Source: Elusimicrobia bacterium HGW-Elusimicrobia-3
GTDB lineage: Bacteria > Elusimicrobiota > Elusimicrobia > Elusimicrobiales > UBA9959
Assembly: GCA_002840355.1 (NCBI GenBank)
Contig: PHAL01000002.1
Span: 1-39,277 of the forward strand
Direction: 5' to 3'
Length of the DNA: 39,277 nucleotides
Shown here in pieces: positions 13,111 through 39,277 of the stretch (the first letter of the stretch is position 1; each line of letters opens with the position of its first letter). The translations under genes and the position numbers were made by a program. The notes beneath the pieces are model-generated. The model was not told where the DNA came from and did no database searches. It saw nothing but the letters and a program-made list of their open reading frames with translations.

Positions 13111-14769
13111 ATGGAAGGCAAATTCATCAAACCCGCTCACTTGGTCGTTTACGGCATGTTCATCATGACGCTGGGCGGCTTCTTTACCGTCATGCACGTC
13201 GGGATCAGCGCCAGGAAGGCCGAGCAGATACAGCACGGCTTCGCTTTCCGCGGGGCCCCGGCGCCGGAGAAGAGTTCCTTCGCTGGCGATTTCAAGCGCG
13301 GCGGCGCCATAGTGGCCGCGCAGGCCAGGAATTTCACCGGCGGGCTTTTTTCCCGGCCGGACAACAGGCCCGCGGCGCGGGCCTCCTACACGGCGTCCGG
13401 CAAGCGGGCCTCCATCTACGACGAGGAGCGCAACGGCGCGCCCGGCGAAAAGGACCCGTTCGAGGAATTTTACGAGAAGAATTACGGCCGCGGCGCCGGC
13501 GCGTCTTACTCCGCCCCGGCCGCCTCATGGGGCGGTTCCGCCTCCTCCTGGCGCGGCTCCGGCGGCAGTTCCACCGCGGGCCGCTCTGAAAGCGCCGCGG
13601 AGGGTCCTGCCCGTGAACCTTCACCGGATACGGCCGCCGCGGCACCGGAGGAAGAATCCTCCGGCGGCGGCGAAACTCCCGGCAGCCCCGTTTTCGGCGG
13701 CCCGTTGGGCAAGGCCGCGCCTCGGGAACAGCTGCACGCCTCGCTGCCGCAGGGCGCGGGGCCCCGGCAGGGGCTGGAGCGCCCTGGTGAGCTTTCCGGA
13801 GGAGGTCTCTCCCCGTCCGGAGTGAAAGGTGAAAAAGGCGGCACGCTCTCCGGCATGCCCGGCCCGCGGGCCCCCGGTTCCCTTGACGGCGTCGGTGAGA
13901 GCGCCCGTTCCGGTTCCCGGGGCAGCTACAATTCCAAGATGGCCGGCGGCGCGGCCGCGGCCGCGGCGGCCGCTCCTGGCGCTGTTCCCTCCGCCTCCAA
14001 GCCCAAGGAAGTTTCCGCCGGTGGCGGTGGCGGTGGCGGTTCCGGCGGCGGTTCCGGTTCCGGCGATACCTCCGGCGGCGGAGATGCTGCGCCCGACGCC
14101 GCTGCCGGCGACAAAGCCGGGGATAACACAGAACCCGCGGAGCCCAAAGCGGAAGAAGCGCCTGACAGGTCCCGTTTTTTCGCCGCCGCGCCGGAGAACC
14201 AGTCCTTTCTGAAGACGGTGGTCCTGGAGCGGAGCAAAGGCGCCGAGGTCAAGTATGTCACCGAGGAAGACGCCGCCGGCGAGCTGGACGAGTCGCTGCT
14301 GAAATCCGGCGCCGCGCTCACCGAGGCTCCCGCGGAAAAGGACTTCCTGGCCGCCCGCTCGGCCCCGGACCGCAAGGCCAGGGCTAAGGCCGACCCGGAG
14401 CAATTTTCCGCCCTTTCGTCCGAACGCAGAAAGGAACTCAAGAAGGAGATCCATGTTTTCCTTAAGCGCATAGAGCGCCGCTACGGGGCCATGGAGGATA
14501 TCGTCTACACCTCATGCGGCGCCGGGCGCGAGCTCTGCGCCGAGCACGGCCTGACCGAAGGCTACCTTACCATGAAGACCAGGACGGGAGCAAAGCTGCT
14601 GCTGGGCCTCAAGTACGTGGACAAGAAGTGGCGGCCTTATACGGTAGGCTTCACGCTGCCCGCCTCGGCGCGGCCGCGGCCTCCCGCCCGGGAGGAGAGC
14701 TTGGCGGAGGCAGAGAACCCTGCGGACGGCGACGCCGTCAGCGGGACGGACGCCGGGACGGAAGAATAA
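13111..14769 (+). CDS. Membrane-anchored Gly/Ser/Ala/Pro-rich protein with C-terminal domain (protein A)
   Basis: A 552-residue protein that I do not recognise. Residues 1-10 are short and basic, 11-31 form one membrane helix (LVVYGMFIMTLGGFFTVMHV), and the rest should lie outside the cytoplasm. Residues 40-340 are low complexity: Gly, Ser, Ala, Pro and Glu with an eight-alanine run and a block of seven glycines near 300-310. From about 435 to 525 the sequence becomes globular (ERRKELKKEIHVFLKRIERRY, then YTSCGAGRELC with two cysteines, and LLLGLKYVDKKWRPYTVGF). The ribosome binding site is AGGCAGGA. The build (charged start, one anchor, long disordered region, small end domain) is that of the 17558-27702 proteins, but clear shared motifs are lacking, so membership of that family is inferred from architecture only. 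Confidence 0.65.
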   Translation: MEGKFIKPAHLVVYGMFIMTLGGFFTVMHVGISARKAEQIQHGFAFRGAPAPEKSSFAGDFKRGGAIVAAQARNFTGGLFSRPDNRPAARASYTASGKRASIYDEERNGAPGEKDPFEEFYEKNYGRGAGASYSAPAASWGGSASSWRGSGGSSTAGRSESAAEGPAREPSPDTAAAAPEEESSGGGETPGSPVFGGPLGKAAPREQLHASLPQGAGPRQGLERPGELSGGGLSPSGVKGEKGGTLSGMPGPRAPGSLDGVGESARSGSRGSYNSKMAGGAAAAAAAAPGAVPSASKPKEVSAGGGGGGGSGGGSGSGDTSGGGDAAPDAAAGDKAGDNTEPAEPKAEEAPDRSRFFAAAPENQSFLKTVVLERSKGAEVKYVTEEDAAGELDESLLKSGAALTEAPAEKDFLAARSAPDRKARAKADPEQFSALSSERRKELKKEIHVFLKRIERRYGAMEDIVYTSCGAGRELCAEHGLTEGYLTMKTRTGAKLLLGLKYVDKKWRPYTVGFTLPASARPRPPAREESLAEAENPADGDAVSGTDAGTEE

Positions 14770-17557: not shown

Positions 17558-18805
17558 ATGGCTGATAACTCTAATAACAGGAAAAAAGCGCTCATCATTT
17601 CCGTGCTGGCTTTTCTTTTCGCCGGCGGCGGAATATTCCTTTTCTTCATCGTGCAGGGCTCAAACGACATTACGGGAGCGGGCAAGAAGAACACCTTCTC
17701 CTACGGGTTCGCTGTCCGCGACGCCGTTCTGCCGCTTTTCAAGCGCATGGGCATTACCAACTTCGAAGAGGAAGTGGTCCGCCCCAGGAAAGTGGAGGAA
17801 CAGGCTTCAGGAGAAGAAGTGGCGGCGCCGCCGGCGGATGTTTCCGATTGGATGGCGCAGGCTCCCTCCGCCGCCTCGCCTTCCCCTTCAGGCCGGCCCG
17901 CGGCCCCCACCCGGGTGCCCAAGATGGCCGGCCGCTCCAAGTCGCCGGTGGGCGGCGCCTCGGCCGGCGGTTCCAAATCAGCCGGCGGCGTAACCCGCTT
18001 CGGCCCGGGCTCTGCTGCCGGCATGACCTCTGTTTCCGGCAAAGGCCTTGCCGGCTCCCAGGGTATTACCGAAAAAGGCACGCTGGCCGCGCTTAAGAAT
18101 TCCCGCGCCCTGCTGGGCGAAGGCCTTCGCTCCAATTCCGCCATGACGGCCAGCAACAAGTGGAACCAGAGCTTCGGAGTGGGCTCCGCCGGCAGCGGCA
18201 GCGGCGGCGGCAGCCTGGCCTATAATAAGACCGGACTGGTGAACCTCGACAAGATAAAGAGCGGGGAGATCTCCAATCTTAAGTTCGATAAGGCGGGGAG
18301 TTTGAAGACCACCGAAGTCAGTTCCCCCGTAAAGGACAGCGAAGGCACCTCAAAAGCCCTGTCCGCGGATAAGAAGCTTAAGGAAGACGTCGAAGCCGAG
18401 ATTAAGAAAAAAGCGGCCGCGGGCGCCCTTGAGGGTTTGGAGGATGCGGCGACGAAGCCCAAGACGGAAAAGGGCGATAGTCCCGAGGCCCAGGATCCCC
18501 CGGAATCAGGCACCTGCGATCTGAGCGCCGGCCCCCCTACTGCGCTGTGTTCCGCGGCGCTGGGTGACAGCAACACTATGGATTCCGATACCAAAGTGGA
18601 CTGGAAAGAGGCCGGGGAGGGGACGGACGGAGCCAAGAGATACGAGGTCACTTACTCGGGCACCGGGCCGGGTATCACCGACCAGTATAAAGGGCAGCCG
18701 GTCAATTACGGCGATACGGCGGTAATGGAAGTAGACTCCAAGGGGAACGTGACCATTGTGGAGTGGAAGACTCCCGTAGAGACCCCCGTGCCCGTCCTGA
18801 GATAA
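17558..18805 (+). CDS. Membrane-anchored Gly/Ser-rich protein of the 17-28 kb cluster (protein B)
   Basis: A 415-residue protein with no recognisable family. Residues 1-10 are polar and basic, 11-32 form one helix (ALIISVLAFLFAGGGIFLFF), and the remainder is probably extracytoplasmic. A short amphipathic part (VRDAVLPLFKRMGITNFEEEVV) is followed by Pro/Ala/Ser/Gly-rich sequence with TRVPKM at about 118-123. Residues 172-210 (EKGTLAALKNSRALLG and onward) align with protein C (EKRNTLVALLGNSANKSQ). A charged helix region (about 265-295) leads to a C-terminal globular part with two cysteines (GTCDLSAGPPTALC) and beta-like sequence (AKRYEVTYSGTG, TAVMEVDSKGNVTIVEW). It has its own promoter and leader hairpin, and heads the cluster of six related genes. 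Confidence 0.7.
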   Translation: MADNSNNRKKALIISVLAFLFAGGGIFLFFIVQGSNDITGAGKKNTFSYGFAVRDAVLPLFKRMGITNFEEEVVRPRKVEEQASGEEVAAPPADVSDWMAQAPSAASPSPSGRPAAPTRVPKMAGRSKSPVGGASAGGSKSAGGVTRFGPGSAAGMTSVSGKGLAGSQGITEKGTLAALKNSRALLGEGLRSNSAMTASNKWNQSFGVGSAGSGSGGGSLAYNKTGLVNLDKIKSGEISNLKFDKAGSLKTTEVSSPVKDSEGTSKALSADKKLKEDVEAEIKKKAAAGALEGLEDAATKPKTEKGDSPEAQDPPESGTCDLSAGPPTALCSAALGDSNTMDSDTKVDWKEAGEGTDGAKRYEVTYSGTGPGITDQYKGQPVNYGDTAVMEVDSKGNVTIVEWKTPVETPVPVLR

Positions 18806-18835
18806 GTAACCGGGACAGATTTGGTCAGTGGGCTC

Positions 18836-18864
18836 TTGACAAGTCAATGTTTGTCTGCTATAAC
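18836..18864 (+). promoter_or_regulatory. Strong sigma-70-type promoter for protein C and downstream genes
   Basis: Consensus TTGACA (18836-18841), 17-base spacer, TATAAC (18859-18864) with extended -10 TGC. It shares TTTGTCTGCTA (18850-18860) with the promoter at 17447-17475. Confidence 0.8.
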
Positions 18865-18885
18865 ATCCTTGTGAATCAACTTTGA

Positions 18886-18913
18886 CCTGAACGCCCGAGG
18901 GGGCTGTGTCAGG
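18886..18913 (+). promoter_or_regulatory. Leader hairpin upstream of protein C
   Basis: CCTGA (18886-18890) pairs with TCAGG (18909-18913), with an inner GCCC-GAGG-GGGC stem. It lies in the roughly 95-base leader between the 18836 promoter and the ATG at 18966. There is no T tract, so a terminator is unlikely. Confidence 0.4.
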
Positions 18914-18965
18914 AAAAGTTTAAAGTTATTTTGTGCGGCATTCTCGGAGATATAAAGGCGGGGTT

Positions 18966-19892
18966 ATGATGAAATTCCAGCCCAAAAAGAACAAGTCGAC
19001 CCAGTATGTGATAGGCGGCACCGTGGCCGTGATAATCCTGGGCATCTGGGTTTCTATCCCCCTGATGAGCGGCTCTTCGCTCGATTCCCGTGTTTCCGCA
19101 GGCAATCCTTTCCGTTCCAAGGTGGCCGACATAGGCCTGCTTGGCAGCGACATCGCCTCCGAGGCGGGCGCCCCCGGCTCCCCCCTGAGCGGCGAGATGA
19201 TAAACAACCCGGCCACTTCCGGCGAGGACATCGCCTCTTCACTCTTCCAGTCCGGCCCGGGCGTAGAGGAGCCCGAGGCTGTTACCGCCGAAGCCTCGGT
19301 CTCGGCCGACGCCCCCGCACCTTCCGCTTCCGGAGCGGCACCGGCGCCGGCGGCCCCCCGCGGTAAACTGGCCGCTGCCGCCTCCATAACCGGCGGCAAT
19401 TCCAACAGCATGACCGCCGGCGGCACGCATAACAAGTTCTTCGGTACCGGCAATAATAAGGCGGAACTCGCCTCGGTGTCGGCCGCCGACCTCGGTAAGT
19501 CCGCTTCGGTGGAGAAGCGCAACACGCTCGTGGCCCTGCTCGGCAACAGCGCCAACAAGAGCCAGTCGGCGCTCAAGACCGGCGCGGACCTGGGCGCGGC
19601 CAAAGGCGGCGCGGCCCAGGCTTTCGCCAATACGTCCAAAACTTCCAGCACGGACCTCAACAGCAACCTGGAGGAGCAGACCGCGCTTTCCGGCCTGCAG
19701 ATGGGCCAGACCGCCCAGGACCTGAAGAAGAACGATCCTTCTATAAGCAAGACCAAGGTCACGCCTCCCTCCAAGCCGGAGGACGCCACTGACGAGAGCG
19801 AAGAGATGAAGAATCAGATAAAGATGATGGTCATACAGATGGTGCTGAAAATGGCGCTGGGTGCGGTGTTCCAGGGGATGATGCCCGCTTAA
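18966..19892 (+). CDS. Membrane-anchored Ala/Ser/Gly-rich protein of the cluster (protein C)
   Basis: A 308-residue protein. I start it at the ATG at 18966, behind AAAGGCGGGG, rather than at an in-frame GTG 33 bases earlier. Residues 1-12 are basic (MMKFQPKKNKS), 13-34 are the membrane anchor (YVIGGTVAVIILGIWVSIPL), then Ser/Ala/Pro-rich sequence follows. Residues 183-225 (EKRNTLVALLGNSANKSQ, then GAAKGGAAQAFANT) match protein B and protein D. NDPSIS at 256-261 and PSKPED at 268-273 recur in protein D (NDPSLS, PSKPED). The C-terminus ends in a methionine-rich hydrophobic helix (QIKMMVIQMVLKMALGAVF), perhaps a second membrane or packing segment. It is the first gene behind the 18836 promoter, 25 bases before protein D. 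Function unknown. Confidence 0.7.
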   Translation: MMKFQPKKNKSTQYVIGGTVAVIILGIWVSIPLMSGSSLDSRVSAGNPFRSKVADIGLLGSDIASEAGAPGSPLSGEMINNPATSGEDIASSLFQSGPGVEEPEAVTAEASVSADAPAPSASGAAPAPAAPRGKLAAAASITGGNSNSMTAGGTHNKFFGTGNNKAELASVSAADLGKSASVEKRNTLVALLGNSANKSQSALKTGADLGAAKGGAAQAFANTSKTSSTDLNSNLEEQTALSGLQMGQTAQDLKKNDPSISKTKVTPPSKPEDATDESEEMKNQIKMMVIQMVLKMALGAVFQGMMPA

Positions 19893-19917
19893 TTTCAGGA
19901 CTTTACCGGGAGGAGTT

Positions 19918-21342
19918 ATGAACGACTATAACGAGAAAAAAGAAGAGAAAGGCGGTTTCCTTTCCAGCCTTTCAGCGCTTTTCAGGGGCGGGTCTTCCGT
20001 TGCGGGCGGCGCCTCTTCCGGCATGGGTTCGGCCGGCGGCCTAGGGGGGCTTTTCGCCAGCAAGGCGGGCATAGTCGGCATGGTGCTGGGCGGAGCCACT
20101 ATAGCGGCCGGCGTGGGCGTGGTCTACAACTTCGTGGGCCCTACCTCCAAACCCGTTTACTCTCCCGACCTCTTCCAGAACACCTACTACGAAGAAGAAG
20201 CCTCCAGGGCCGGGCATGAGCGGGCGCTCTCCCGCGACTCCTCCGCGGCCGCTTCCTCTACCCTGGACATGTTCAGGGAACAGGCCAAGAAAGACGGCAT
20301 AGGCCTGCCCGGCGACTCGGCCGGCGCCGGCGCCGAAGCTTCAGCGGACGCCGCTGTTGACGGTTCTTACTCCGACGCTTCTGCCGAGGCTCCCGCGGCT
20401 GACTCCGCGGCGGGCGGCGGCGCGGGCGGCGCGCCCAAACTGCAGGCTTCCGCCGGTTTCGGCGGCGGCAAGGGCGGCGCCGGCAGCGGCACCTCGATCC
20501 CCAGGATGCAGGGCGGCGGCGGACTGGCCGGCGGCATAGGCGCCAAGTTCCAGCCCGTCTACAGGCCCCCGGCCCAGGCCAATACCGGCAGGAGTTCCGG
20601 CATGACGGCGCAGGCCGCCGCGCGGGTAAAGAATTCTCCCAAGTACGCGGTTCCCAATACCAACAGGAAGGGCGCCTACGGCCAGGCCAAGTTCGCCCGG
20701 AACATGGGCAGCAAGGCCGCTTTCTCCGCTGACGCGGCCGGCGCGCGCACCGGGGCCACCGAGGCTTTCTCCGGCGAGACCGGCAACAGCGGCGACGTGG
20801 CCACCCCCGGCACCGGCGCGGGCCTTGGCGGCGCGGGCATAGCCGACGGCGCGTCCCTTAAGGGCAATGATCCCAGCCTGAGCGCCAACGAGTCCAGCGT
20901 GCCCGAACCCAGCAAGCCCGAGGACGTGGACCCGTGGCAGGCGACCGAAGACCGGGCGATGAAGTTTCTAATGATCTCCGCCGGCCTGGTGCTCCTGACT
21001 AAAATCCTGTCCAACTTCAAGTCTCCCATCGCCTACTATGCGGCCATGGTCACCTGCGCTCTGGCCATAGCGGCCGCTCTGGTCGTGATCTTCGCCGGCA
21101 TAGAGATGATGACGAAGTATGACCAGAAAATGATGGGCGGCATTTACGTCCTTACCGGCGTCATGCTGATTATCGCCGCCTGGAACGCCCTGTGCGGGGC
21201 GGCTAAGGCCACCACCGCGGCGGGCAATACCCCGTGGGGCGCCAGCAGTCTCAGCGGCGCCGGGATAAACCTCGGCGGTATGTTCGGCGGTAGCGGCGGC
21301 GCGGCCGCCGCCGGTGCGGCGGGCGCGGCTAAGAAGCCCTAA
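19918..21342 (+). CDS. Gly/Ala-rich protein with N-terminal anchor and C-terminal membrane domain (protein D)
   Basis: A 474-residue protein. It opens with MNDYNEKKEEKGG, a charged start like those of proteins E and G, then a glycine-rich segment and a membrane helix at about 48-72. STLDMF at 114-119, SIPRM near 193, a QAKFARN...GARTGATEAFSGETG module at about 256-290, NDPSLS at 317 and PSKPED at 331-336 all recur in cluster neighbours. From residue 348 onward three hydrophobic helices (about 348-365, 372-398 and 407-429) make a compact membrane domain, followed by a Gly/Ala-rich tail. The C-terminal domain resembles that of protein E (DPWQATEDRAMKFLM against SPWADDLSKIMTYLM). No catalytic motif is visible. 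Good ribosome binding site GGGAGGAG. Confidence 0.7.
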   Translation: MNDYNEKKEEKGGFLSSLSALFRGGSSVAGGASSGMGSAGGLGGLFASKAGIVGMVLGGATIAAGVGVVYNFVGPTSKPVYSPDLFQNTYYEEEASRAGHERALSRDSSAAASSTLDMFREQAKKDGIGLPGDSAGAGAEASADAAVDGSYSDASAEAPAADSAAGGGAGGAPKLQASAGFGGGKGGAGSGTSIPRMQGGGGLAGGIGAKFQPVYRPPAQANTGRSSGMTAQAAARVKNSPKYAVPNTNRKGAYGQAKFARNMGSKAAFSADAAGARTGATEAFSGETGNSGDVATPGTGAGLGGAGIADGASLKGNDPSLSANESSVPEPSKPEDVDPWQATEDRAMKFLMISAGLVLLTKILSNFKSPIAYYAAMVTCALAIAAALVVIFAGIEMMTKYDQKMMGGIYVLTGVMLIIAAWNALCGAAKATTAAGNTPWGASSLSGAGINLGGMFGGSGGAAAAGAAGAAKKP

Positions 21343-21380
21343 TCAGGTATGCGGACAAATGCGGGTTTTCTGGAGGCGTT

Positions 21381-22823
21381 ATGAACGACAATCTGCCGGA
21401 TATAAACTTTAAAGAGAAAAAAGAGAAGAAGGGCGGCGCCATTGGCTGGCTGCGCGGCAAACTGGGCTTGGGCTCGCGCGGCTCAATCGGCCAGGCGGGC
21501 GTTAACCCTTCCGCCATGAACGTGGGCAAGGCCGCCTTCGGCGGCGCCTCCAAGTTCGGGGCTTCGGCCGGCCTGGGCAGTTTCCTGGCCGGTAACGCCG
21601 GTCTGGTAGCCACCGTCGCCATGGTGGCGGTGGCAGGCGGGCTCTACCTGGCCAATAACGCGCCGGCGCCGAGCACCGCCACTTCGGCCTTCAGCTCCAA
21701 CCAGTCGCACGACAACTACGTACCGGCCATATTGCGCAGCCAGGCCGCCAACCAGGGCTCCTCGCTCGACATGTTCAAGGACACCAACAAGGGGTCCCTG
21801 GCCATGGACGAAGCGCCCGCCGCCAAGAAGGACCAGGCGGCGGACCCCAACGCGGCCGCGGCCGACGGCGAGGAAGGGCAGCCCCAGGATCCCAATGCCC
21901 AACCCGACGGCAACAACATGGCCCAAGACATGATGGGCAAGCTGCAGGGAGGCGAGATGGCTTCGCTGACCAGCCAGTTGGGCGGCGGCTCCAACAAGTT
22001 CTCCAACATGGGCGGCTTCAGCAACAAGTTCGGTTCCGGGGCTACCGGCGCCAAGACCGGCTTTACCTCCGGCATCGGCGCGGGCTTCTCCTCCATGCCC
22101 AAGTTCGACAACCGCAAGGGCAAGATGCTGGCGATGAAAGGGGCCGCGAGGCCGGTGTTCGGCAGCTCCAAGGCCGGCAAGAAAGGCAGCATAGGCGCCG
22201 GCGCCATGAACCAGGCCAAGGGCATGCGCGCGATACAGAAATCTTTCACCGGCGACACGGTGGACGGGGCCCGCTCCACCCAGGATAAGGCCTGGGAAGG
22301 CACCACCGGCGACGACAGCGCCACCGGCGGCGGCGCCGGCATCAGCGACGGCGGCGCTGGCATAGTGTCCTCGCCCTCGCTCGACAATGTGGACGGCATG
22401 AGCGGCGGCGGCGGCACTGACGTCCCGGATAGCAGTATTCCGGACGCTTCCGGCAACACCGACGAAAGCCCATGGGCCGACGATCTTTCAAAGATCATGA
22501 CGTACCTCATGCTTTCCTGTATTCTCACTTTTATCGCTTCCAAGGTTGCCAACATACTTCCTTGGGGGAGAATTGTCGCTATAATTCTCGCCGCGATAGC
22601 TGCGCTCCTTGCACTTGCGGCTATTGTCATTGCGGTAAAGGTCATGGGGTCCCAGGCCCTGATGGGGACCATGTATCTGCTCGGAGGTATAGCGGCTGTT
22701 GCGGCTGCCGTTATGGCGATAACAGGCGCTTACAACAAGACAGATATAAACCCCAACGCCATGGTGCTTCTGGCTGGTGCGGGTGCATTAGCTTTGATTT
22801 CCAGCATGCTGGGCGGCAAGTAG
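21381..22823 (+). CDS. Gly/Ala-rich protein with N-terminal anchor and C-terminal membrane domain (protein E)
   Basis: A 480-residue paralogue of protein D. The charged N-terminus ends in INFKEKKEKKGG; a membrane helix follows at about 70-93; SSLDMFK occurs at 127-133 and SMPKF at 238-242. The module QAKGMRAIQKSFTGD, then VDGARSTQDKAWEGTTG (about 278-312) is the closest match to protein D. The C-terminal domain from residue 371 has four predicted helices (about 373-392, 397-420, 424-446, 455-476). Codon choice and base composition change in this last part: bases 22501-22680 are about 52 % G+C by count, while the preceding sequence is near 67 %. That could reflect recombination or different selection. 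RBS TGGAGG. It follows protein D by 38 bases. Confidence 0.7.
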   Translation: MNDNLPDINFKEKKEKKGGAIGWLRGKLGLGSRGSIGQAGVNPSAMNVGKAAFGGASKFGASAGLGSFLAGNAGLVATVAMVAVAGGLYLANNAPAPSTATSAFSSNQSHDNYVPAILRSQAANQGSSLDMFKDTNKGSLAMDEAPAAKKDQAADPNAAAADGEEGQPQDPNAQPDGNNMAQDMMGKLQGGEMASLTSQLGGGSNKFSNMGGFSNKFGSGATGAKTGFTSGIGAGFSSMPKFDNRKGKMLAMKGAARPVFGSSKAGKKGSIGAGAMNQAKGMRAIQKSFTGDTVDGARSTQDKAWEGTTGDDSATGGGAGISDGGAGIVSSPSLDNVDGMSGGGGTDVPDSSIPDASGNTDESPWADDLSKIMTYLMLSCILTFIASKVANILPWGRIVAIILAAIAALLALAAIVIAVKVMGSQALMGTMYLLGGIAAVAAAVMAITGAYNKTDINPNAMVLLAGAGALALISSMLGGK

Positions 22824-22847
22824 TTCTTTTGGGGGAAAGGCCGCGGC

Positions 22848-22874
22848 TGCCGCCGGGTTAAAGGCCCGGCGGCA
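22848..22874 (+). repeat. Intergenic hairpin between proteins E and F
   Basis: A perfect 10-bp stem, TGCCGCCGGG / CCCGGCGGCA, with a seven-base loop. There is no T tract downstream, so it may be a processing or stabilising structure rather than a terminator. Confidence 0.5.
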
Positions 22875-22951
22875 TCAGGCGTAAAAGAGTCGGCGCGGCG
22901 CGGTAAATAGATGGAGTTTTCCGGTAGGCCGGGTAGGCCACTGGAGGTTAT

Positions 22952-24508
22952 ATGGGCAGCAAATTCGTAGAAAAACATAAACGCAAATCTCTCTTGGCCG
23001 CCTTGCTGCTGATTTTCCGCGGCAGGGCCAAGTACGTGGGCGTCCTGCTCGTCCTCGCCGTGCTCTCCGTCCCTTTCGTCATCTCCGGAGAGACCTTCGG
23101 CCGCATCGTTATGTTCCAGCCCGTCGCGGCCTTCCTGCGCACTGTAGGCCTGGGCAGCGTCGTCTCGGCCATCAACCCCAAGTATTCCAACGACCTGATG
23201 AAAGCGGCCCTTGACCGCGCGGCCGCGGACAGCGCCCAGAATTCCTTCTGGCAGAAGTTCCTCAATAACCTCAACGCCACGCTGCCCCCCGGCGGCGGGC
23301 CGTCCTCCATCGCGATGATACGCGGCGGCGGCGACGACATCTTCGGCACCCCGGAACTTAAGGACGGTTCAGGCCGGGCCAGGCCCGGGCAGGTTAAGGG
23401 CGTGGTCAACGACGATGAACGCTCGCGCGGCGAGAATGCCGACGCGGTGGACCTGGAGGGCCTGCTGGCCGGAGCCGGAGGGCCCGGAGCGGACGGCGGT
23501 CTCTACGGCGACACGATGGGTCAGAACCTGGCCGGCAATTTCGGCAGCGGTTCCGCTTCGGGCTCGGGCCCGTACATGAACCGCACCATGTTGAGCGGCC
23601 CCGGCGGCGCCGGCGGCAGCGCCTCCGGCATGTACGCGCGGGTGGTGGGCCAGGCGGCCAGCAAGGTGCCGGTGCCCGGCTCGCCCCAGAAAGTGAATTC
23701 CAAGACCATGGGCAGGGTTTCAGGTTTCTCCTGGAAGAACGTCGGGTATAAGACCAAGAGCGCCCGCATGGACACCAAACTGGGGTCCAAGAAGCCGATG
23801 TTCCAGCTGGCCGAGACCTTCGGTATGACGGCGACGGCGTTCAGGTCCAAGGACGCCGCCTACGAGTACCAGGCTTCCTATACCGGCAGCACCTACGACG
23901 GCAACGATGTCAGCGCTGACGCGCTGCAGACCGATACCGCCGCCCCGATAGTGCCCGACACTTCCTTTACCGGCAACCTGATCTCCGGCGCCGGCGCGCT
24001 GCAGGAGGACGCCAAGCGCTGCACCGACGCGCAGGGCACGCACGGCGCTGCCATGTCCGACGACGGCAAGAAGATAGACGATACCGCCAAGACCCTGGGC
24101 AAGCCCCCGAAATGCTGCAGCAGCGGCGTGGGCGCCTGGAACAGCAAGATACGCAGCATAATCGGCTACTGCAACGATTTCAACGTGCACGAGGCGCAGC
24201 AGGCGGCCGCTTGCCAGATCACCAGCAAGCCCATGAACTGCAGCAGCTACAACAAGATGATCATCAAGCCCTGCAAAAAGTGGAAGTGCTGGCTGGCGAT
24301 AATACTGATGATACTGCTGGGCGGCCTGTTCGGCATAATCGGCATGATAGCCGTCGGCGTGATGATAGGCGGTTCCGTCTCCGGCCTGTTCGGCCCGCAG
24401 ATGACGAGTTTCGTGGAGAGCATGGTAAGTTTTGTAGCTTCCGGAGGCCAGGATGAAAATTCCAAGGATGAGGCCACCAGCCTGCCTCCCATGGACCCCA
24501 GGAAGTGA
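22952..24508 (+). CDS. Membrane-anchored protein with cysteine-rich region and C-terminal helix (protein F)
   Basis: A 518-residue protein. A strongly basic start (KFVEKHKRKS) leads to a helix at about 28-45 (YVGVLLVLAVLSVPFVIS). Residues 50-110 look structured, 110-240 are Gly/Ser-rich, and a basic stretch (KNVGYKTKSARMDTKLGSKK) follows. Residues about 350-445 contain ten cysteines, including a CC pair (KPPKCCSSGVG) and CKKWKCW, just before a C-terminal membrane segment at about 446-478 (LAIILMILLGGLFGIIGMIAVG). Such cysteines suggest disulfides outside the cytoplasm. It lacks the clear B-E sequence modules but shares the architecture and gene order. Good ribosome binding site CTGGAGG. Function unknown. 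Confidence 0.7.
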   Translation: MGSKFVEKHKRKSLLAALLLIFRGRAKYVGVLLVLAVLSVPFVISGETFGRIVMFQPVAAFLRTVGLGSVVSAINPKYSNDLMKAALDRAAADSAQNSFWQKFLNNLNATLPPGGGPSSIAMIRGGGDDIFGTPELKDGSGRARPGQVKGVVNDDERSRGENADAVDLEGLLAGAGGPGADGGLYGDTMGQNLAGNFGSGSASGSGPYMNRTMLSGPGGAGGSASGMYARVVGQAASKVPVPGSPQKVNSKTMGRVSGFSWKNVGYKTKSARMDTKLGSKKPMFQLAETFGMTATAFRSKDAAYEYQASYTGSTYDGNDVSADALQTDTAAPIVPDTSFTGNLISGAGALQEDAKRCTDAQGTHGAAMSDDGKKIDDTAKTLGKPPKCCSSGVGAWNSKIRSIIGYCNDFNVHEAQQAAACQITSKPMNCSSYNKMIIKPCKKWKCWLAIILMILLGGLFGIIGMIAVGVMIGGSVSGLFGPQMTSFVESMVSFVASGGQDENSKDEATSLPPMDPRK

Positions 24509-24822
24509 GCGGTACTCTTAAGCCCGAGGTTACAGCCTGTACGGAGGAATGTTCCGGTGTCGCGAAACAAATGCTTCGACGGTACGCTTCAGCGAAAGAG
24601 TTTTACGAGGAACACCTCCGCGGCCGCCACACAGGCGGCAGGCTGACCGCAGGGCTTTTTTGCGGCCGGGGCCAAAGGGCCTAGCAGCCTGGGGGACTAA
24701 TGACACTTGGCCCGGCGCGCGGTTTTAGGTAGAGTATAGTTGGAGAAGTCTATAATATAATTTCGGCGGTCGTTGTTCGCTGCGGGATTTTAAATCAAGC
24801 AAGTTAAGCATCGGAGGCGGTT
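24509..24822 (+). other. 314-base non-coding stretch with inverted repeat and probable promoter for protein G
   Basis: No convincing gene lies here. Bases 24542-24620 form an imperfect hairpin: CGGAGG-AAT-GTTCC on the left against GGAAC-A-CCTCCG on the right. A second small hairpin GCCGCC-ACACA-GGCGGC lies near 24622-24640, followed by a T6 run at 24655-24661, which might terminate transcription from protein F. TATAAT at 24751-24756 is a good -10 box for protein G, but I see no matching -35, so it may need an activator. The ten-base AGCGAAAGAG (24591-24600) recurs inverted in the 2799-2908 element. Confidence 0.45.
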
Positions 24823-27702
24823 ATGAACTTTTACAATGAGGACGAAAAGAAGGCGGATATCCCGGTGATCCCCGGGGCGGCTTCGCCGTTCAGGAAAACT
24901 TCAGCCTTCGGAAAAGCCCCGATGTTCTCCCGCGCCGCGGGCAGCTTCGTGGACAGGCTGAAAAACCTCTCCCGCAGGGACATGGCCTTCGTGGGCATCG
25001 GCCTGAGCGTGCTGGTCATGGCCCCGGTGGCGGAGTACATGATCTCCCAGCCCTCCCAGGACAACGTGCTTAAGGGCAACGATTTCGCCCAGCGGCACGG
25101 CGACGCCGGCCCTTTCGAGCCCGGCATCCACGGCCTCAGCCAGGGCTCGGCGGACGGCTCCGGTGAAGTCATCACCCCGCTGACCTCGCGCGACCCCGCC
25201 TCGCTGATACTCGGCTCCCAGTCTTCGCAGCCCGTGCTGCCCCCGGCCGTCACCGCGCCGCCCAGCAGCAGCTGGCGCGACGCCGTTACCGATTCGGGCC
25301 GGGCCGCCTTCAGCGCGGCCACCAAATCGGTCGGCGCGCCTACCGTCATTCCCAAGATGTCGGCCAGCCTGCGCGGCTTCACCTCCTTCGGCGGCGACGG
25401 CAGCTCCCGCACCTCCGGCACCCTGGGCGGCGGCAAGATCATAGATGACGCCAAGTCGGCTTCTTCCAAGGCCGCCAAGCGCTCGATGATAGGCCCCGTG
25501 GCCATGGCCGGCTATAAGGGCGTGGCCTCCGGCACCCCCAACAGCGCCTCCAAGGGCGCCTTCGAAAAACTCCGCGGTGCGGCCGACAAGTCGGCCAGCA
25601 ACTTCTCCGGCGGTTCCGCCATGAGTTCGCTGGACAAGGCCGCGGCCGACGCCGTGCAGATCGGCGCGGGCACCGGCGGCGCCGGCGGCCTGGGCGAAGG
25701 CGAAAAGACCAAGGGCTCCAACAACTACGATAACAAGTACAAGCATGAGCGCTCCGGCGAATCCCTCGCCGAAATGGCGGCCAAAGAGCGCCAGAAGAAA
25801 GCGCTCGAGTGGGAATTCTTCAAGAAGTACGAGATCAAGAAGACCATCGTCAAAGCCGTGGTTGAGGCTTTCTCCACCACGCTGGGCAAGTTCCTGACCG
25901 GCCAGATGGAAGGCGCCCTGGGCATGACGCCCGGTTCGGCGCCCAAGTGCTATACCACGGTGCGCGAGGAGCCCGACTGGGCCGCGGCCGAGGCCGCGGT
26001 AGCCGCCGGCACGGCCGCGAGCACCCTGGAATATGTATGTAAAGCCGACGGCGGTCCCATAGTTGTATCCTACCAGATGGGTAAGGAAGCCGCCTCTTCG
26101 ATGAAAAAGAAGTGTATCTGCGATTCTTTCGCGGGTTCCACCGGGTCTGCCGCGCCGGGAACCACCCCTGGCGGCGCCAACCCCATAGTTCCGGGCGCTA
26201 CCCCGGACCAGATCGCCGCTAATACGGCGGAGAACATATCGGACTATGACTCGGTCCTGAAGACCGTTGTGCTGCCGGCCGTGAAGGGGTATCACAAGGT
26301 GGCCAAAAAGTCCGTGGACGGGAACATGCAGCCCAAGGCGGTGGATAAGGAAGAGGAGCAGGAGGTTACGCTGGCCCTGAACGACGCCATGACCAAGCTG
26401 AACACCGCCGCGACCAGTTCCGTCACCAACGCGATAACCGCCAAGAACGCCGCGGCCAGAAAAGAGCTTAACACGTACGGCAGGGCGGTCAATACAGCCT
26501 CTTCGCTGGTAGCTTCTTCCAAGGCTAAACAGAATATAGACCAGCTTGATCGCCTGAGGGCCGCCGCCGCTGCCGACGCCGCCGCCGGCAAATGCACGGT
26601 CAAGCTGAACACGACCACGGCCCAGACTGGTTCCGAGGTCGCCGCGGCCAAGGCCAACTGCGAGGCCATCGTGGCCAGGATAGACGGCAACGAGTCCTAC
26701 AAGACCGGCAAGGGCAGTTTCAATCTTGCCAAGGACGCGCTCAAGTCCCATACCCGCAGGAACGCCGTCTTGGGCACCCAGATGGATGCTATGGACGGCG
26801 CGGTGTCCGCCATGATGACCAGGCATGCCACCGTGCCCGTCAAGGTTAAAGCCATACTGGACGTGGCCGAAGGCAAGACCATGCTGGCCAAGATAGAGGA
26901 AATAATAGCCAAGGACGCGGATATTCCCGCGGATCCGGTGCCCGCCGCCAAGTCCAACGAGGACAAAAAGCCCCTGCTTATAGCCATAGAGGACCTGCGC
27001 GGCATCACCCTGGCGTCTTTCTGGGAAGAAGAATTCGACGCCAAGCATACCGTGACGGCCGAACAGACCGCCTGGGAGCCTTTCGATAAAGCCGCCGGTA
27101 CCGAGGCCCCCGGGACTCTCGGCGCGCCGGTCAACTTCGAGGCCGCCGTACAGCGCCCCAACGAGATGATCACCTCTATCGCCGGCGCCAAAAAGGGCCT
27201 TTCGGACATAGCGACCCTGCTGGATACGGCCGAAACCAACACCCAGGCCACCGTGGACGACCTGAAAGAACTGGCCGCCCCGTGTAACTTCACTGAGGCG
27301 GGCTGCGCGGCCTCTACGACCGGGGAAACCCCCGATGTCAAGCCTGATCCCATCAAGCCTGATCCCATCAAGCCGGAGCCTATCAAGCCGGACCCCATCA
27401 AGCCTGATCCCATCAAGCCGAACCCCAATGCCGCCAGCGCGGACGAGGTTGCGGAAGCCGAGGCTAACCTCGCGATCATACGTTCCGTTCATCGCTATGG
27501 CGTGGGAGTCGAGAACGGCGCCAGCAACTGCACCAATGCCCAGTCGGATATAATCAGGGTGGCATTGAACGACTCGAATGCTCTGATGAGGGGTACTCTG
27601 ACAAAGAACGACGTGGCTGTTATTGAGCGGAACGTGCAGAGTGCCTGCAATGTGTTGAGCAAGTGCAACCGCGCCGGGTATGCCGCCGCCGGCTGCAACT
27701 AG
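24823..27702 (+). CDS. Large membrane-anchored, helix-rich and cysteine-containing protein (protein G)
   Basis: At 959 residues this is the largest member of the cluster. It starts MNFYNEDEKKAD, similar to protein D, and has one membrane helix at about 54-74. The extracytoplasmic part begins Ser/Gly-rich with TVIPKM near 171, then becomes helical: a charged segment near 310-350 (EMAAKERQKKALEWEFFKKY), and long alanine-rich helices through 500-800. Cysteines cluster at 385-450 (KCYTTV, YVCKAD, KKKCICDSF) and at the end (NCTNAQ, SACNVLSKCNRAGYAAAGCN). Residues 840-868 are five KPDPI-type pentapeptide repeats, a likely stiff linker. The last 90 residues form a separate small domain with less biased codon use. 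Ribosome binding site GGAGGCGG; a strong terminator follows. No known family recognised. Confidence 0.7.
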   Translation: MNFYNEDEKKADIPVIPGAASPFRKTSAFGKAPMFSRAAGSFVDRLKNLSRRDMAFVGIGLSVLVMAPVAEYMISQPSQDNVLKGNDFAQRHGDAGPFEPGIHGLSQGSADGSGEVITPLTSRDPASLILGSQSSQPVLPPAVTAPPSSSWRDAVTDSGRAAFSAATKSVGAPTVIPKMSASLRGFTSFGGDGSSRTSGTLGGGKIIDDAKSASSKAAKRSMIGPVAMAGYKGVASGTPNSASKGAFEKLRGAADKSASNFSGGSAMSSLDKAAADAVQIGAGTGGAGGLGEGEKTKGSNNYDNKYKHERSGESLAEMAAKERQKKALEWEFFKKYEIKKTIVKAVVEAFSTTLGKFLTGQMEGALGMTPGSAPKCYTTVREEPDWAAAEAAVAAGTAASTLEYVCKADGGPIVVSYQMGKEAASSMKKKCICDSFAGSTGSAAPGTTPGGANPIVPGATPDQIAANTAENISDYDSVLKTVVLPAVKGYHKVAKKSVDGNMQPKAVDKEEEQEVTLALNDAMTKLNTAATSSVTNAITAKNAAARKELNTYGRAVNTASSLVASSKAKQNIDQLDRLRAAAAADAAAGKCTVKLNTTTAQTGSEVAAAKANCEAIVARIDGNESYKTGKGSFNLAKDALKSHTRRNAVLGTQMDAMDGAVSAMMTRHATVPVKVKAILDVAEGKTMLAKIEEIIAKDADIPADPVPAAKSNEDKKPLLIAIEDLRGITLASFWEEEFDAKHTVTAEQTAWEPFDKAAGTEAPGTLGAPVNFEAAVQRPNEMITSIAGAKKGLSDIATLLDTAETNTQATVDDLKELAAPCNFTEAGCAASTTGETPDVKPDPIKPDPIKPEPIKPDPIKPDPIKPNPNAASADEVAEAEANLAIIRSVHRYGVGVENGASNCTNAQSDIIRVALNDSNALMRGTLTKNDVAVIERNVQSACNVLSKCNRAGYAAAGCN
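27340..27426 (+). repeat. Tandem 15-bp repeats encoding KPDPI pentapeptides
   Basis: Five in-frame copies of a 15-base unit (27340-27414) encode KPDPI with one KPEPI variant, followed by a partial KPNP. Pro/Lys repeats of this kind form extended spacers in cell-envelope proteins such as TonB. Confidence 0.85.
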
Positions 27703-27722
27703 CCCTCGTTCCAGAACAAAGA

Positions 27723-27752
27723 AAACCCCGCGGAACTCCGCGGGGTTTTTCT
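27723..27752 (+). terminator. Strong intrinsic terminator ending the cluster
   Basis: Eight-base perfect stem CCCCGCGG / CCGCGGGG with an AACT loop, followed by TTTTTC, 20 bases after the protein G stop. Confidence 0.9.
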
Positions 27753-27775
27753 TTATGGCCGGCGGGCTAAAATCG

Positions 27776-27781
27776 TATAAT
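27776..27781 (+). promoter_or_regulatory. Possible -10 box for the outer-membrane protein gene
   Basis: TATAAT lies 60 bases before the ATG at 27842, directly after the cluster terminator. The best -35 candidates (TTTATG or TTATGG around 27752) are poor. Confidence 0.45.
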
Positions 27782-27841
27782 ATACCTGCGGTTTCAATAC
27801 GGGGGAGGGGCGACTCTCGACCGACATAAAGGGGAGAAACA

Positions 27842-28720
27842 ATGAAAAAACTCATATTAGCGGCGGCCATGGTAGCGGTGCTGGGCAGCGGCGCCTCGGC
27901 CTGGTTCGACGGCGGCCTCGGCATGACCACCGGTCCCGACGGCTACAGCCGGACCGACGCCTATCTCACCATGGGCGGCGACTCCATGTGGATAAAGCCC
28001 GCCCTGCTGCGCCAGGATTCCGATAACCTTAACAACGCCTTTAACACCTATTCCTTGCGCGTGGGCAAGGACTCCTCCGTGTATACGGTGGCCGGCGAGG
28101 TCGGTATGACCCCCGCCACCGAGTACTCCCCCGGCGTGGACTACTCCAGCGTGTTCTTCGGCGGCGACATCACCTTCTCGCTCAATCCTTCCGGCAGCGG
28201 CAAAGACCGCCTGGCCGGCCCCAACTCCAGGGCCTCTTCCGGCGGCGGCGGGGGGATAACCCGCGTGGACGTGGGGGCCGGTATAAAGCGCACCACCCAC
28301 AAGGTGGAGTCGGCCACCAGCGACCTGGACGCGGCGCAGACCGCTTTCTCGGTCTTCGCCGGCGCCAAGATCGCCATGGCCAACCTCAGCGCCACCTGGA
28401 CCGGCTTCAGCTACGACGATAAGAGCAATCCCATCTTCAACGTGGCGCCGATTACCGGCCAGTCTCTGGCCATAATAGGCCTGCCCGCCAAGTCCAGCGT
28501 GAACGTTCGCCTGGATATCCCGTCCACTCTGCCGATGGTCGCTCCGTACGCCAGCTATACCACCACCAAGTACAACGCGAACGTGGACGACACCAAAGCG
28601 TACGGCTTCGGCGCCTATATAGACCTCAACATGGTCGGCGCCAATGCCATGTACCAGATACTCGATGACGGCAACACCAAGGAAAGCTATATCTCGCTGA
28701 ACGCCGGTCTGAAGTTCTAA
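27842..28720 (+). CDS. Predicted outer-membrane beta-barrel protein
   Basis: A 292-residue protein with a clean signal peptide, MKKLILAAAMVAVLGSGASA, cleaved after ASA. The mature protein shows alternating hydrophobic/polar strands with many aromatic residues (SVYTVAGEVGM, SSVFFGGDITFSL, KAYGFGAYIDLNM) and ends in SYISLNAGLKF; a C-terminal phenylalanine on an amphipathic strand is the usual signal for insertion by the BAM machinery. Size suggests a barrel of roughly 8-12 strands. A loop near residues 125-140 is Gly/Ser-rich. It has its own -10 box and sits right after the anchored-protein cluster, so it is a candidate outer-membrane partner, but only proximity supports that. Good ribosome binding site AAGGGGAGA. 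Confidence 0.75.
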   Translation: MKKLILAAAMVAVLGSGASAWFDGGLGMTTGPDGYSRTDAYLTMGGDSMWIKPALLRQDSDNLNNAFNTYSLRVGKDSSVYTVAGEVGMTPATEYSPGVDYSSVFFGGDITFSLNPSGSGKDRLAGPNSRASSGGGGGITRVDVGAGIKRTTHKVESATSDLDAAQTAFSVFAGAKIAMANLSATWTGFSYDDKSNPIFNVAPITGQSLAIIGLPAKSSVNVRLDIPSTLPMVAPYASYTTTKYNANVDDTKAYGFGAYIDLNMVGANAMYQILDDGNTKESYISLNAGLKF

Positions 28721-36969: not shown

Positions 36970-37587
36970 ATGAAAAACCATAAGGCCGAAGAAAAGAAGG
37001 GGAAGAAAGCGGAGGAGACGGAGGCAGCGCCCGGGGCCGAGGCCCCGACGGAAGCGCCGCAGGGCGAGCTGGAGCAGCAGAAGAAGCAGTCGGAGGACTA
37101 CTACAACCAGCTGCTGCGCCTGCAGGCCGACTTCGAGAACTACCGCAAGCGCGTGGAGAAGGAGAAACCGGAGCTGATAAAATACGGCAAGGCCGATATT
37201 CTCATCCGCCTGCTGCCGCTCTACGACCTGCTGCTGTCGGCCCACAACCACATCAACAGCGCCAAGGACGGCGGCAACAGCGACGACGTGCTGAAGGGCC
37301 TGGAGATGATCTTCAAGGAATTTTCCAAGGTGTTCGAGGCGGAAGGGCTGCGCCAGATGGAACCGGTGGGCAAGCCCTACGACCCGATGGCTTCGGAGAT
37401 ACTCGGGGTGGTGGAGGGGACGGAGGAGAACGACGGCCTGGTAACGGAGGAGCTGCAGAAGGGCTTCTACTACGGCGACAAGATCCTGCGGCCCGCGCGG
37501 GTGAAGATAGCCAAGAAGAAGGCGGAGCCGGCGCCGGAACCGGTCCCGGAGCCGGAGCAGAAGCCGTCGGAAGAAGAAGGGCAGTGA
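36970..37587 (+). CDS. grpE: Nucleotide exchange factor GrpE
   Basis: A 205-residue GrpE. The charged N-terminus (Lys/Glu/Ala/Pro-rich, residues 1-40) leads into the long dimerising helix with LLRLQADFENYRKRVEKEK, the family signature, then LLPLYDLLLSAHNH, and the C-terminal beta domain with GKPYDPMASEILGVVEG and VTEELQKGFYYGDKILRPARVKIA. It releases ADP from DnaK in the cytosol. The C-terminus carries an extra Pro/Glu/Lys-rich tail of about 25 residues. It starts two bases after hrcA with a weak ribosome binding site, suggesting coupled translation. Confidence 0.95.
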   Translation: MKNHKAEEKKGKKAEETEAAPGAEAPTEAPQGELEQQKKQSEDYYNQLLRLQADFENYRKRVEKEKPELIKYGKADILIRLLPLYDLLLSAHNHINSAKDGGNSDDVLKGLEMIFKEFSKVFEAEGLRQMEPVGKPYDPMASEILGVVEGTEENDGLVTEELQKGFYYGDKILRPARVKIAKKKAEPAPEPVPEPEQKPSEEEGQ

Positions 37588-37620
37588 ATTTTCAGTAACT
37601 TAATTTGGAGGAAACATATA

Positions 37621-39277
37621 TGGCAAAGATAATAGGCATAGACCTCGGTACGTCTAACACCGCCGCGGCGGTGATGGAAGGCGGCAAAGTCACCATCATC
37701 CCGTCGGCCGAAGGCACGAGCCTGGGCGGGAAGGCTTTCCCTTCCTACGTGGCTTTCGCCAAGGACGGGCAGATGCTCGTCGGCGAGCCCGCCCGCAGGC
37801 AGGCCGTCGCCAACCCGGAAGGCACCGTCAGCGCCTTTAAGCGCAAGATGGGCACCGAGCACAAATACAACATCGGCGGCAAGGAGTTCACGCCCCCTCA
37901 GCTGGCCGCGTTCCTGCTGCAGAAAGTGAAGCGCGACGCCGAGGCCTTCCTCGGCGAGAAGGTGGAGAAAGCCGTCATCACCGTGCCCGCCTACTTCAAC
38001 GACAACCAGCGCCAGGCCACCAAGGACGCCGGCACCATCGCCGGCCTCGAGGTGGTGCGCCTCGTCAACGAGCCCACCGCGGCCGCGCTGGCCTATGGCA
38101 TCGATAAGGAAGGCAAGGACCAGAAGATCATGGTCTTCGACCTGGGCGGCGGCACGCTCGACGTGACCATCATGGAGCTGGGCAAGGAGGGCACGTTCGA
38201 CGTGATCTCCACCTCGGGCGACACGCAGCTCGGCGGCACCGACATGGACCGCGCGCTGGTGGAGTTCATCGCCGGCGAGTTCCGCAAGGACACCGGCATC
38301 GACCTGATGAAGGACGCCACCGCCACGCAGCGCATCAAGGAAGCCGCCGAGAAGGCCAAGATAGAGCTCTCCACCACGATGGAGACCGAGATCAACCTGC
38401 CGTTCATCTCGGCCGACGCCAGCGGCCCCAAGCACATGGCCCTCAAGCTGTCCCGCGCCCGCCTGGAATCCCTCGTGGACTCCATCGTGAAGCGCTGCCA
38501 GAAGTCCATCGACACCGCGCTGGCCGACGCCAAGCTCAAGACCTCGGACATCAGCCGCATCATCCTCGTAGGCGGCCCCACCCGCATGCCCATCGTGCAG
38601 AAGTTCATGGAGGAATACGTCGGCAAGAAGATCGAGCACGGCGTGGACCCGATGGAGTGCGTGGCCAGCGGCGCCGCCGTGCAGGCGGCCGTGCTGACCG
38701 GCGACGTCAAGGATGTGCTGCTGCTCGACGTGACCCCGCTGTCTCTGGGCATCGAGACGCTGGGCTCCGTGATGACCCGCCTGATAGACAAGAACACCAC
38801 GGTCCCCGCCAAGAAATCCCAGGTGTTCTCCACCGCCGCCGACAACCAGCCCGCCGTCACCATCCACGTGCTGCAGGGCGAGCGCGCGATGGCCGGCGAC
38901 AACGTGTCGCTCGGCAAGTTCGACCTGGACGGCATCCCGCCGGCCCCCCGCGGCATGCCGCAGATCGAGGTCACCTTCGACATCGACGCCAACGGCATCC
39001 TGCAGGTGCACGCCAAGGACCTGGGCACCGGCAAGGCGCAGCATATCACCATCAGCGCCCCGAACAAGCTCAGCAAGGAAGACATAGACAAGTTCATGAA
39101 GCAGGCCGAGCAGTTCGCCGACGCCGACAAGAAGTACAAGGAGAAGGTGGAAGCCAAGAACGAGGCCGACACCGTGCTCTACACCACCGAGAAGGCGTTG
39201 AAGGAACACGGCGACAAGATCGGTCAGGACGAGCGCCTGGCCGTGGAGCGCTCCATCGGCGAGCTCAAGGAAGCGCT
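37621..39277 (+). CDS. dnaK: Chaperone DnaK (Hsp70), 3' end outside window
   Basis: An open frame of 552 codons runs to the right edge. It begins [18 protein letters not shown], the phosphate-1 motif of Hsp70, and continues with [30 protein letters not shown], the phosphate-2 motif [15 protein letters not shown] and [13 protein letters not shown]; the linker [18 protein letters not shown] and the substrate-binding domain follow. DnaK folds proteins in an ATP cycle with DnaJ and GrpE. Very good ribosome binding site GGAGGAAA. The usual length is 600-640 residues, so about 60-90 residues are missing because of the window edge. It is the third gene of the operon hrcA-grpE-dnaK; no dnaJ is visible. 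Confidence 0.97.

Follow-up and report, generated by a model that had tools for sequence, protein, structure and literature searches.

In a stretch of 39,277 nt from Elusimicrobia bacterium HGW-Elusimicrobia-3 (contig PHAL01000002.1, GC content 64%; hereafter the window), six consecutive plus-strand genes, lettered B to G for this analysis, encode membrane-anchored low-complexity proteins. We propose that they serve the Tad (type IVc) pilus or secretion machine of Elusimicrobia as accessory proteins anchored in the inner membrane, forming an envelope-spanning complex with exchangeable ends, and put the probability of this reading at roughly 0.6. The linkage of the cluster to Tad, taken by itself, is well supported and highly likely: in three other families of the class, relatives of C to G are encoded within tad loci, together with the ATPase, platform, secretin and minor pilins. 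The six genes are:

17558-18805, plus strand: B, 415 amino acids (aa), anchored low-complexity protein, a relative of the C-type family, with its transmembrane segment at aa 13-31
18966-19892, plus strand: C, 308 aa, anchored low-complexity protein
19918-21342, plus strand: D, 474 aa, with an N-terminal anchor, a low-complexity stalk and a C-terminal three-helix membrane bundle
21381-22823, plus strand: E, 480 aa, a homologue of D
22952-24508, plus strand: F, 518 aa, with an anchor, a low-complexity stalk, a Cys-rich helical hairpin (about aa 338-421) and a C-terminal membrane segment
24823-27702, plus strand: G, 959 aa, with an anchor, a conserved N-terminal 360 aa and a variable, coiled-coil-like C-terminal part

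The relatives came from a survey of 295 Elusimicrobiota genomes, in which f1 denotes the family of the source genome, f2, f7 and f8 denote other families of the class, and L and G numbers denote compared loci and genomes. The order in f7 and f8 is TadG-TadE-(FtsH)-C-D-E-(E')-F-G, and in f2 it is TadG-TadE-C-D-(small)-E-F-G; across these families an FtsH-like AAA+/M41 protease often stands between TadE and the C to G relatives. Upstream in the same f2 locus, Pfam identifies CpaB/RcpC, a secretin, a TadZ-TadA fusion, TadB, TadC and TPR genes, and the same core genes precede the C to G relatives in the f7 loci L204 and L205. The preliminary description of this DNA had recognised no described secretion, pilus or adhesion family here, which holds for the proteins themselves, none of which matches a family library, and fails for their relatives, which adjoin TadG-TadE in Tad loci.

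Profile-profile comparison identified these relatives gene by gene. C matched the C-type proteins of f7 at 99% (E 1e-21) and of f2 at 94%; D and E matched the f7 D/E proteins at 100% and the f2 E-type at 75-79%; F matched its f7 and f2 counterparts at 100% and 68%, and G did so at 100% and 96% across the N-terminal part. B matched the f7 C-type at 95%. Unrelated families used as controls gave 0-1% and non-corresponding pairs nearly always 0-9%, the exceptions being D against the f7 C-type (93%, due to a shared segment) and D against a three-sequence f2 family (22%). The cluster had been described as several anchored paralogues; this is correct for B with the C-type and for D with E, while F and G belong to unrelated families. 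A module common to F and G as well as B to E was an impression gained by eye and is not claimed.

A hidden Markov model of D matches 73 of the 295 genomes, some of them from other families and orders of the class, and every D-related public record bearing a phylum name is from Elusimicrobia/Elusimicrobiota. TadG-type genes occur in 166 of the 295 genomes and, by a hand count that the kinship of the genomes inflates, in 69 of the 73 with a D match. Among the 32 genomes outside f1 with a D match, D lies no more than 10 kb from TadG or TadE in 15 (also counted by hand), far above random placement.

Several observations were made in these loci in passing. Between the D- and E-type genes of f2 lies a gene for a small protein with one anchor, 82-94 aa long (L180 6153-6428, L167 7817-8101, and similar). 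TadZ and TadA are fused in a single protein in Elusimicrobiota Tad loci (L164 1766-3985, L200 8604-10739). PorV-TPR, FliF/FliG-TPR fusion and coiled-coil genes occur in L198 (999-9632) and L118 (12028-18352), the former also with MotA and MotB-like genes. The FliF/FliG-TPR fusion next to C-D in L118 and L121 looked at first like a component of the system and was set aside, being present in 217 of the 295 genomes regardless of Tad.

The source genome itself has the core Tad genes, pieced over three contig ends. One (L200) carries Flp-like pilins, a TadE-like gene, CpaB, the secretin and TadZ-TadA; another (L201) carries TadB, TadC, a TadD-like TPR gene, HAMP, regulators and a DsbA-like gene; and the third (L160) carries kinases, another Flp-like pilin, TadG, TadE, an FtsH-like gene, an anchored low-complexity protein (c16) and an S41 protease. 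In genomes G014 and G018 the same Tad genes stand on a single contig. The secretin is short (240-259 aa), with about 60 residues before the secretin domain. Encoded after FtsH in the Tad locus of f1, c16 is a protein of the B/C type: profile comparison gave 90% with B and 89% with the f7 C-type, which supports the split of one ancestral locus. The Flp-like pilins, with GQxTxEYLL motifs (L200 5983-6419, L160 14883-15161), are missed by Pfam Flp_Fap; that model had suggested a pilin-less Tad, with no Flp pilin in 11 genomes, an idea dropped once small open reading frames were seen to encode such pilins in the source genome and its relatives. Directly downstream of the TadG-TadE-FtsH-S41-HEAT genes runs a reading frame (L160 3-7436, L161 2-19999, L198) that exceeds 9,100 residues, begins with a signal peptide and contains repeats; it possibly encodes a giant surface protein of the source genome (contig C83).

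A surface or envelope assembly distinct from Tad and working alone, with a Tad neighbourhood in some lineages only, would fit the f1 arrangement, where the cluster lies away from the Tad locus with housekeeping genes on its flanks, and it would also fit L162 and L173-L178, where TadG is found without adjacent C to G. It sits poorly with the identical gene order that three families keep behind TadG-TadE, with the C-type relative and FtsH that remain in the f1 Tad locus, and with the co-occurrence of TadG and D, even as inflated by shared ancestry; we consider it unlikely.

B to G are real genes, because their orthologues keep the same order in all same-genus contigs that cover the cluster and because codon positions 1 and 2 are under constraint in C to F (dN/dS, the ratio of non-synonymous to synonymous divergence, is about 0.1-0.3). 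All six were present at the coordinates first reported, with C taken to start at ATG 18966 rather than at the longer GTG 18933, a choice that the orthologues favour. Together they fill 25% of the window, the quarter that had been estimated, and count 3,154 residues rather than about 2,950. Same-genus loci keep fprA-B-C-D-E-F-G, as well as H-dnaX-recR-comEC wherever the contig extends, and other genera of f1 likewise keep the order B to H; L037 and L040 each have a duplicated D. Because gene set and order are thus conserved in related genomes, the joint envelope function suggested in the preliminary description is likely.

All six proteins share a charged N-terminus followed by a strong hydrophobic segment, and Gly, Ser and Ala make up 33-46% of their residues, in line with the plan first described; a single membrane helix, also part of that plan, is true of B, C and G, since F has one extra segment and D and E have three extra C-terminal membrane helices each (four membrane segments in all). 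In the AlphaFold2 model of D, the bundle at aa 339-434 exceeds a predicted local distance difference test score of 90 and the stalk is largely disordered; in that of F, confidence is fair solely for the Cys-rich helical hairpin and the next membrane segment. One short stalk motif is conserved in the alignments:

20254-20274, plus strand: SSTLDMF motif of D, in helix 115-125 of the D model, with the counterpart GSSLDMF in E

B to H gave zero family matches in Pfam and NCBIfam, including the Tad core families (TadA/B/C/D/E/F/G/Z, CpaB, RcpA, Flp). Searched against PDB sequences, F returned nothing and G returned weak coiled-coil matches alone, which we judged compositional. No pilin fold was seen in the models of D and F, most residues of which are of low confidence. 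The class III prepilin motif (G-xxxx-E) before the anchor helix is absent, by inspection, from all of B to G, which therefore are read as accessory proteins and not pilins.

This bears on the possibility that B to G are unconventional minor pilins or secreted Tad cargo and not a scaffold. Their N-in single anchors, their long exported regions, the position of the genes beside the TadE/TadG minor pilins and a resemblance of their variable ends (see below) to variable Tad tips (PMC12075869) would suit such a role. The prepilin motif they lack is, however, carried by the Flp-like and TadE-like proteins that this genome encodes, and the four membrane segments of D and E are unlike pilins, so that we regard pilins or cargo as distinctly improbable.

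The variable ends emerged from comparison with L022, from the nearest species, whose dnaX is 94% identical. Identity to L022 is about 90% across C, F, D 1-330, E 1-340 and G 1-360, and falls in the following parts (identity and synonymous divergence, dS, before versus within the part):

20908-21339, plus strand: C-terminal membrane bundle of D, aa 331-474, apparently exchanged; identity 90% versus 48%, dS 0.43 versus 1.03
22401-22820, plus strand: C-terminal membrane bundle of E, aa 341-480, apparently exchanged; identity 92% versus 46%, dS 0.39 versus 1.46
25903-27699, plus strand: C-terminal part of G, aa 361-959, apparently exchanged; identity 92% versus 25% with a sharp fall near aa 360, dS 0.22 versus 1.45

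B is 51% identical over the whole protein, and the downstream gene H is 50% identical. Whereas dS is 0.22-0.43 in the conserved parts, it reaches 1.03-1.46 in B and in the ends of D, E and G, and is raised less in H (0.62). As judged from these alignments, this indicates that the whole of B, like the C-terminal ends of D, E and G, has been replaced by diverged alleles (allelic exchange), because synonymous divergence is raised nearly to saturation; fast amino-acid change as the only cause is rejected on the same ground. The end of G is most similar to that of L034, from a more distant species, and the pattern recurs in further independent pairs, L038/L039 for E and L030/L037 for G. Chimerism of metagenome-assembled genomes is an unlikely source, since the breaks lie on intact contigs, coincide with domain borders and recur in several genes and species pairs. 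The conserved portions are the filler-like low-complexity parts, and the exchanged portions are the C-terminal ends. That the proteins are passive filler of a periplasmic matrix or sheath, variable through relaxed constraint, would agree with their composition and mostly disordered models, but is very improbable, as the low-complexity parts are the best conserved, with the low dN/dS of C to F, and the variable parts show replacement and not gradual drift.

Some observations weigh against assigning B to G to the Tad machine. In f1, including the source genome, the two loci are apart, so that the linkage there rests on homology, and in genome G033 no C to G set adjoins the Tad genes. Foldseek with the AlphaFold2 models of D and F returned nothing at E <0.1. 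Among ten tests for coupled exchange of the variable ends, E with G alone gave a signal, and this was weak (r 0.26, p 0.011, uncorrected for the ten tests), coupling of the other ends not being detected.

For B to G as Tad accessory proteins, we infer the following docking, topology and function. In f1 the genes would have split off from the core Tad locus. Conserved stalks, through short motifs such as SLDMF, may dock many copies onto the Tad apparatus, and the docked proteins could bridge the periplasm to the short secretin. The variable ends would face a changing partner, by analogy with the variable tips of other Tad pili, while the DsbA-like and FtsH-like proteins of the Tad loci might mediate folding of the Cys-rich F and G and regulate turnover. 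A bolder version, which we offer tentatively and think possible rather than probable, is a Tad machine with non-pilin, multi-copy anchored partners, in which the exchanged bundle and coiled-coil ends, and not minor pilins, set the specificity of a contact-dependent surface device for adhesion, recognition or antagonism. The analysis names a probable machine for a large gene set that is unannotated and, in a mostly uncultured phylum, widely conserved, and suggests that Tad systems can be customised by partners besides minor pilins. Judging by the domain exchange, one end of each protein is probably under strong selection, which marks candidate binding or recognition parts.

The gene order in the window is murC, fprA, B to G, a terminator-like palindrome, H, dnaX, recR and comEC. 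The outer-membrane barrel first predicted behind the terminator corresponds to H, which is barrel-like and has a signal peptide; H accompanies the cluster in f1 only, and in other families unrelated genes follow G. The surrounding features are:

27722-27749, no strand: 12-bp palindrome of terminator-like form in the gap between G and H
27842-28720, plus strand: H, 292 aa, with a signal peptide, a barrel-like outer-membrane protein ending in a C-terminal F, fast evolving
13111-14769, plus strand: a possible outlying member upstream of murC, an anchored low-complexity protein of 552 aa

Profile comparison of this last protein with B to H gave no match, and its membership is uncertain. Antisense to G runs an open frame of 1,009 aa (24901-27930, minus strand), a by-product of high GC. 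A Pfam NAD-GH match at 37473-39209 (minus strand), beyond hrcA and grpE and on the opposite strand, is probably an antisense frame of dnaK.

Tad systems in Elusimicrobia have been reported before (PMC6668835). As in Tad/Flp (type IVc) systems, the source genome has CpaB, a secretin, a TadZ-TadA fusion, TadB, TadC, a TadD-like TPR protein, TadE, a TadG-like protein and Flp-like pilins; its locus further encodes a protease of the FtsH type, a DsbA-like protein and a histidine-kinase cascade. We know of no counterpart of B to G in described tad loci, and a literature search of open-licence papers found none on such proteins. In polymorphic systems with exchangeable C-terminal domains, as here, the N-terminal part is conserved and C-terminal replacement is abrupt; the difference is that D and E exchange membrane bundles and that no toxin or immunity domain was found in the ends of G. 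The Kil system of Myxococcus xanthus is a Tad machine with variable tips (PMC12075869). Its tips KilL/M/N have the pilin fold and prepilin sites, whereas B to G lack prepilin sites and the variable part of D and E is a membrane-helix bundle; common to both are Tad partner proteins that carry variable domains on conserved bases.
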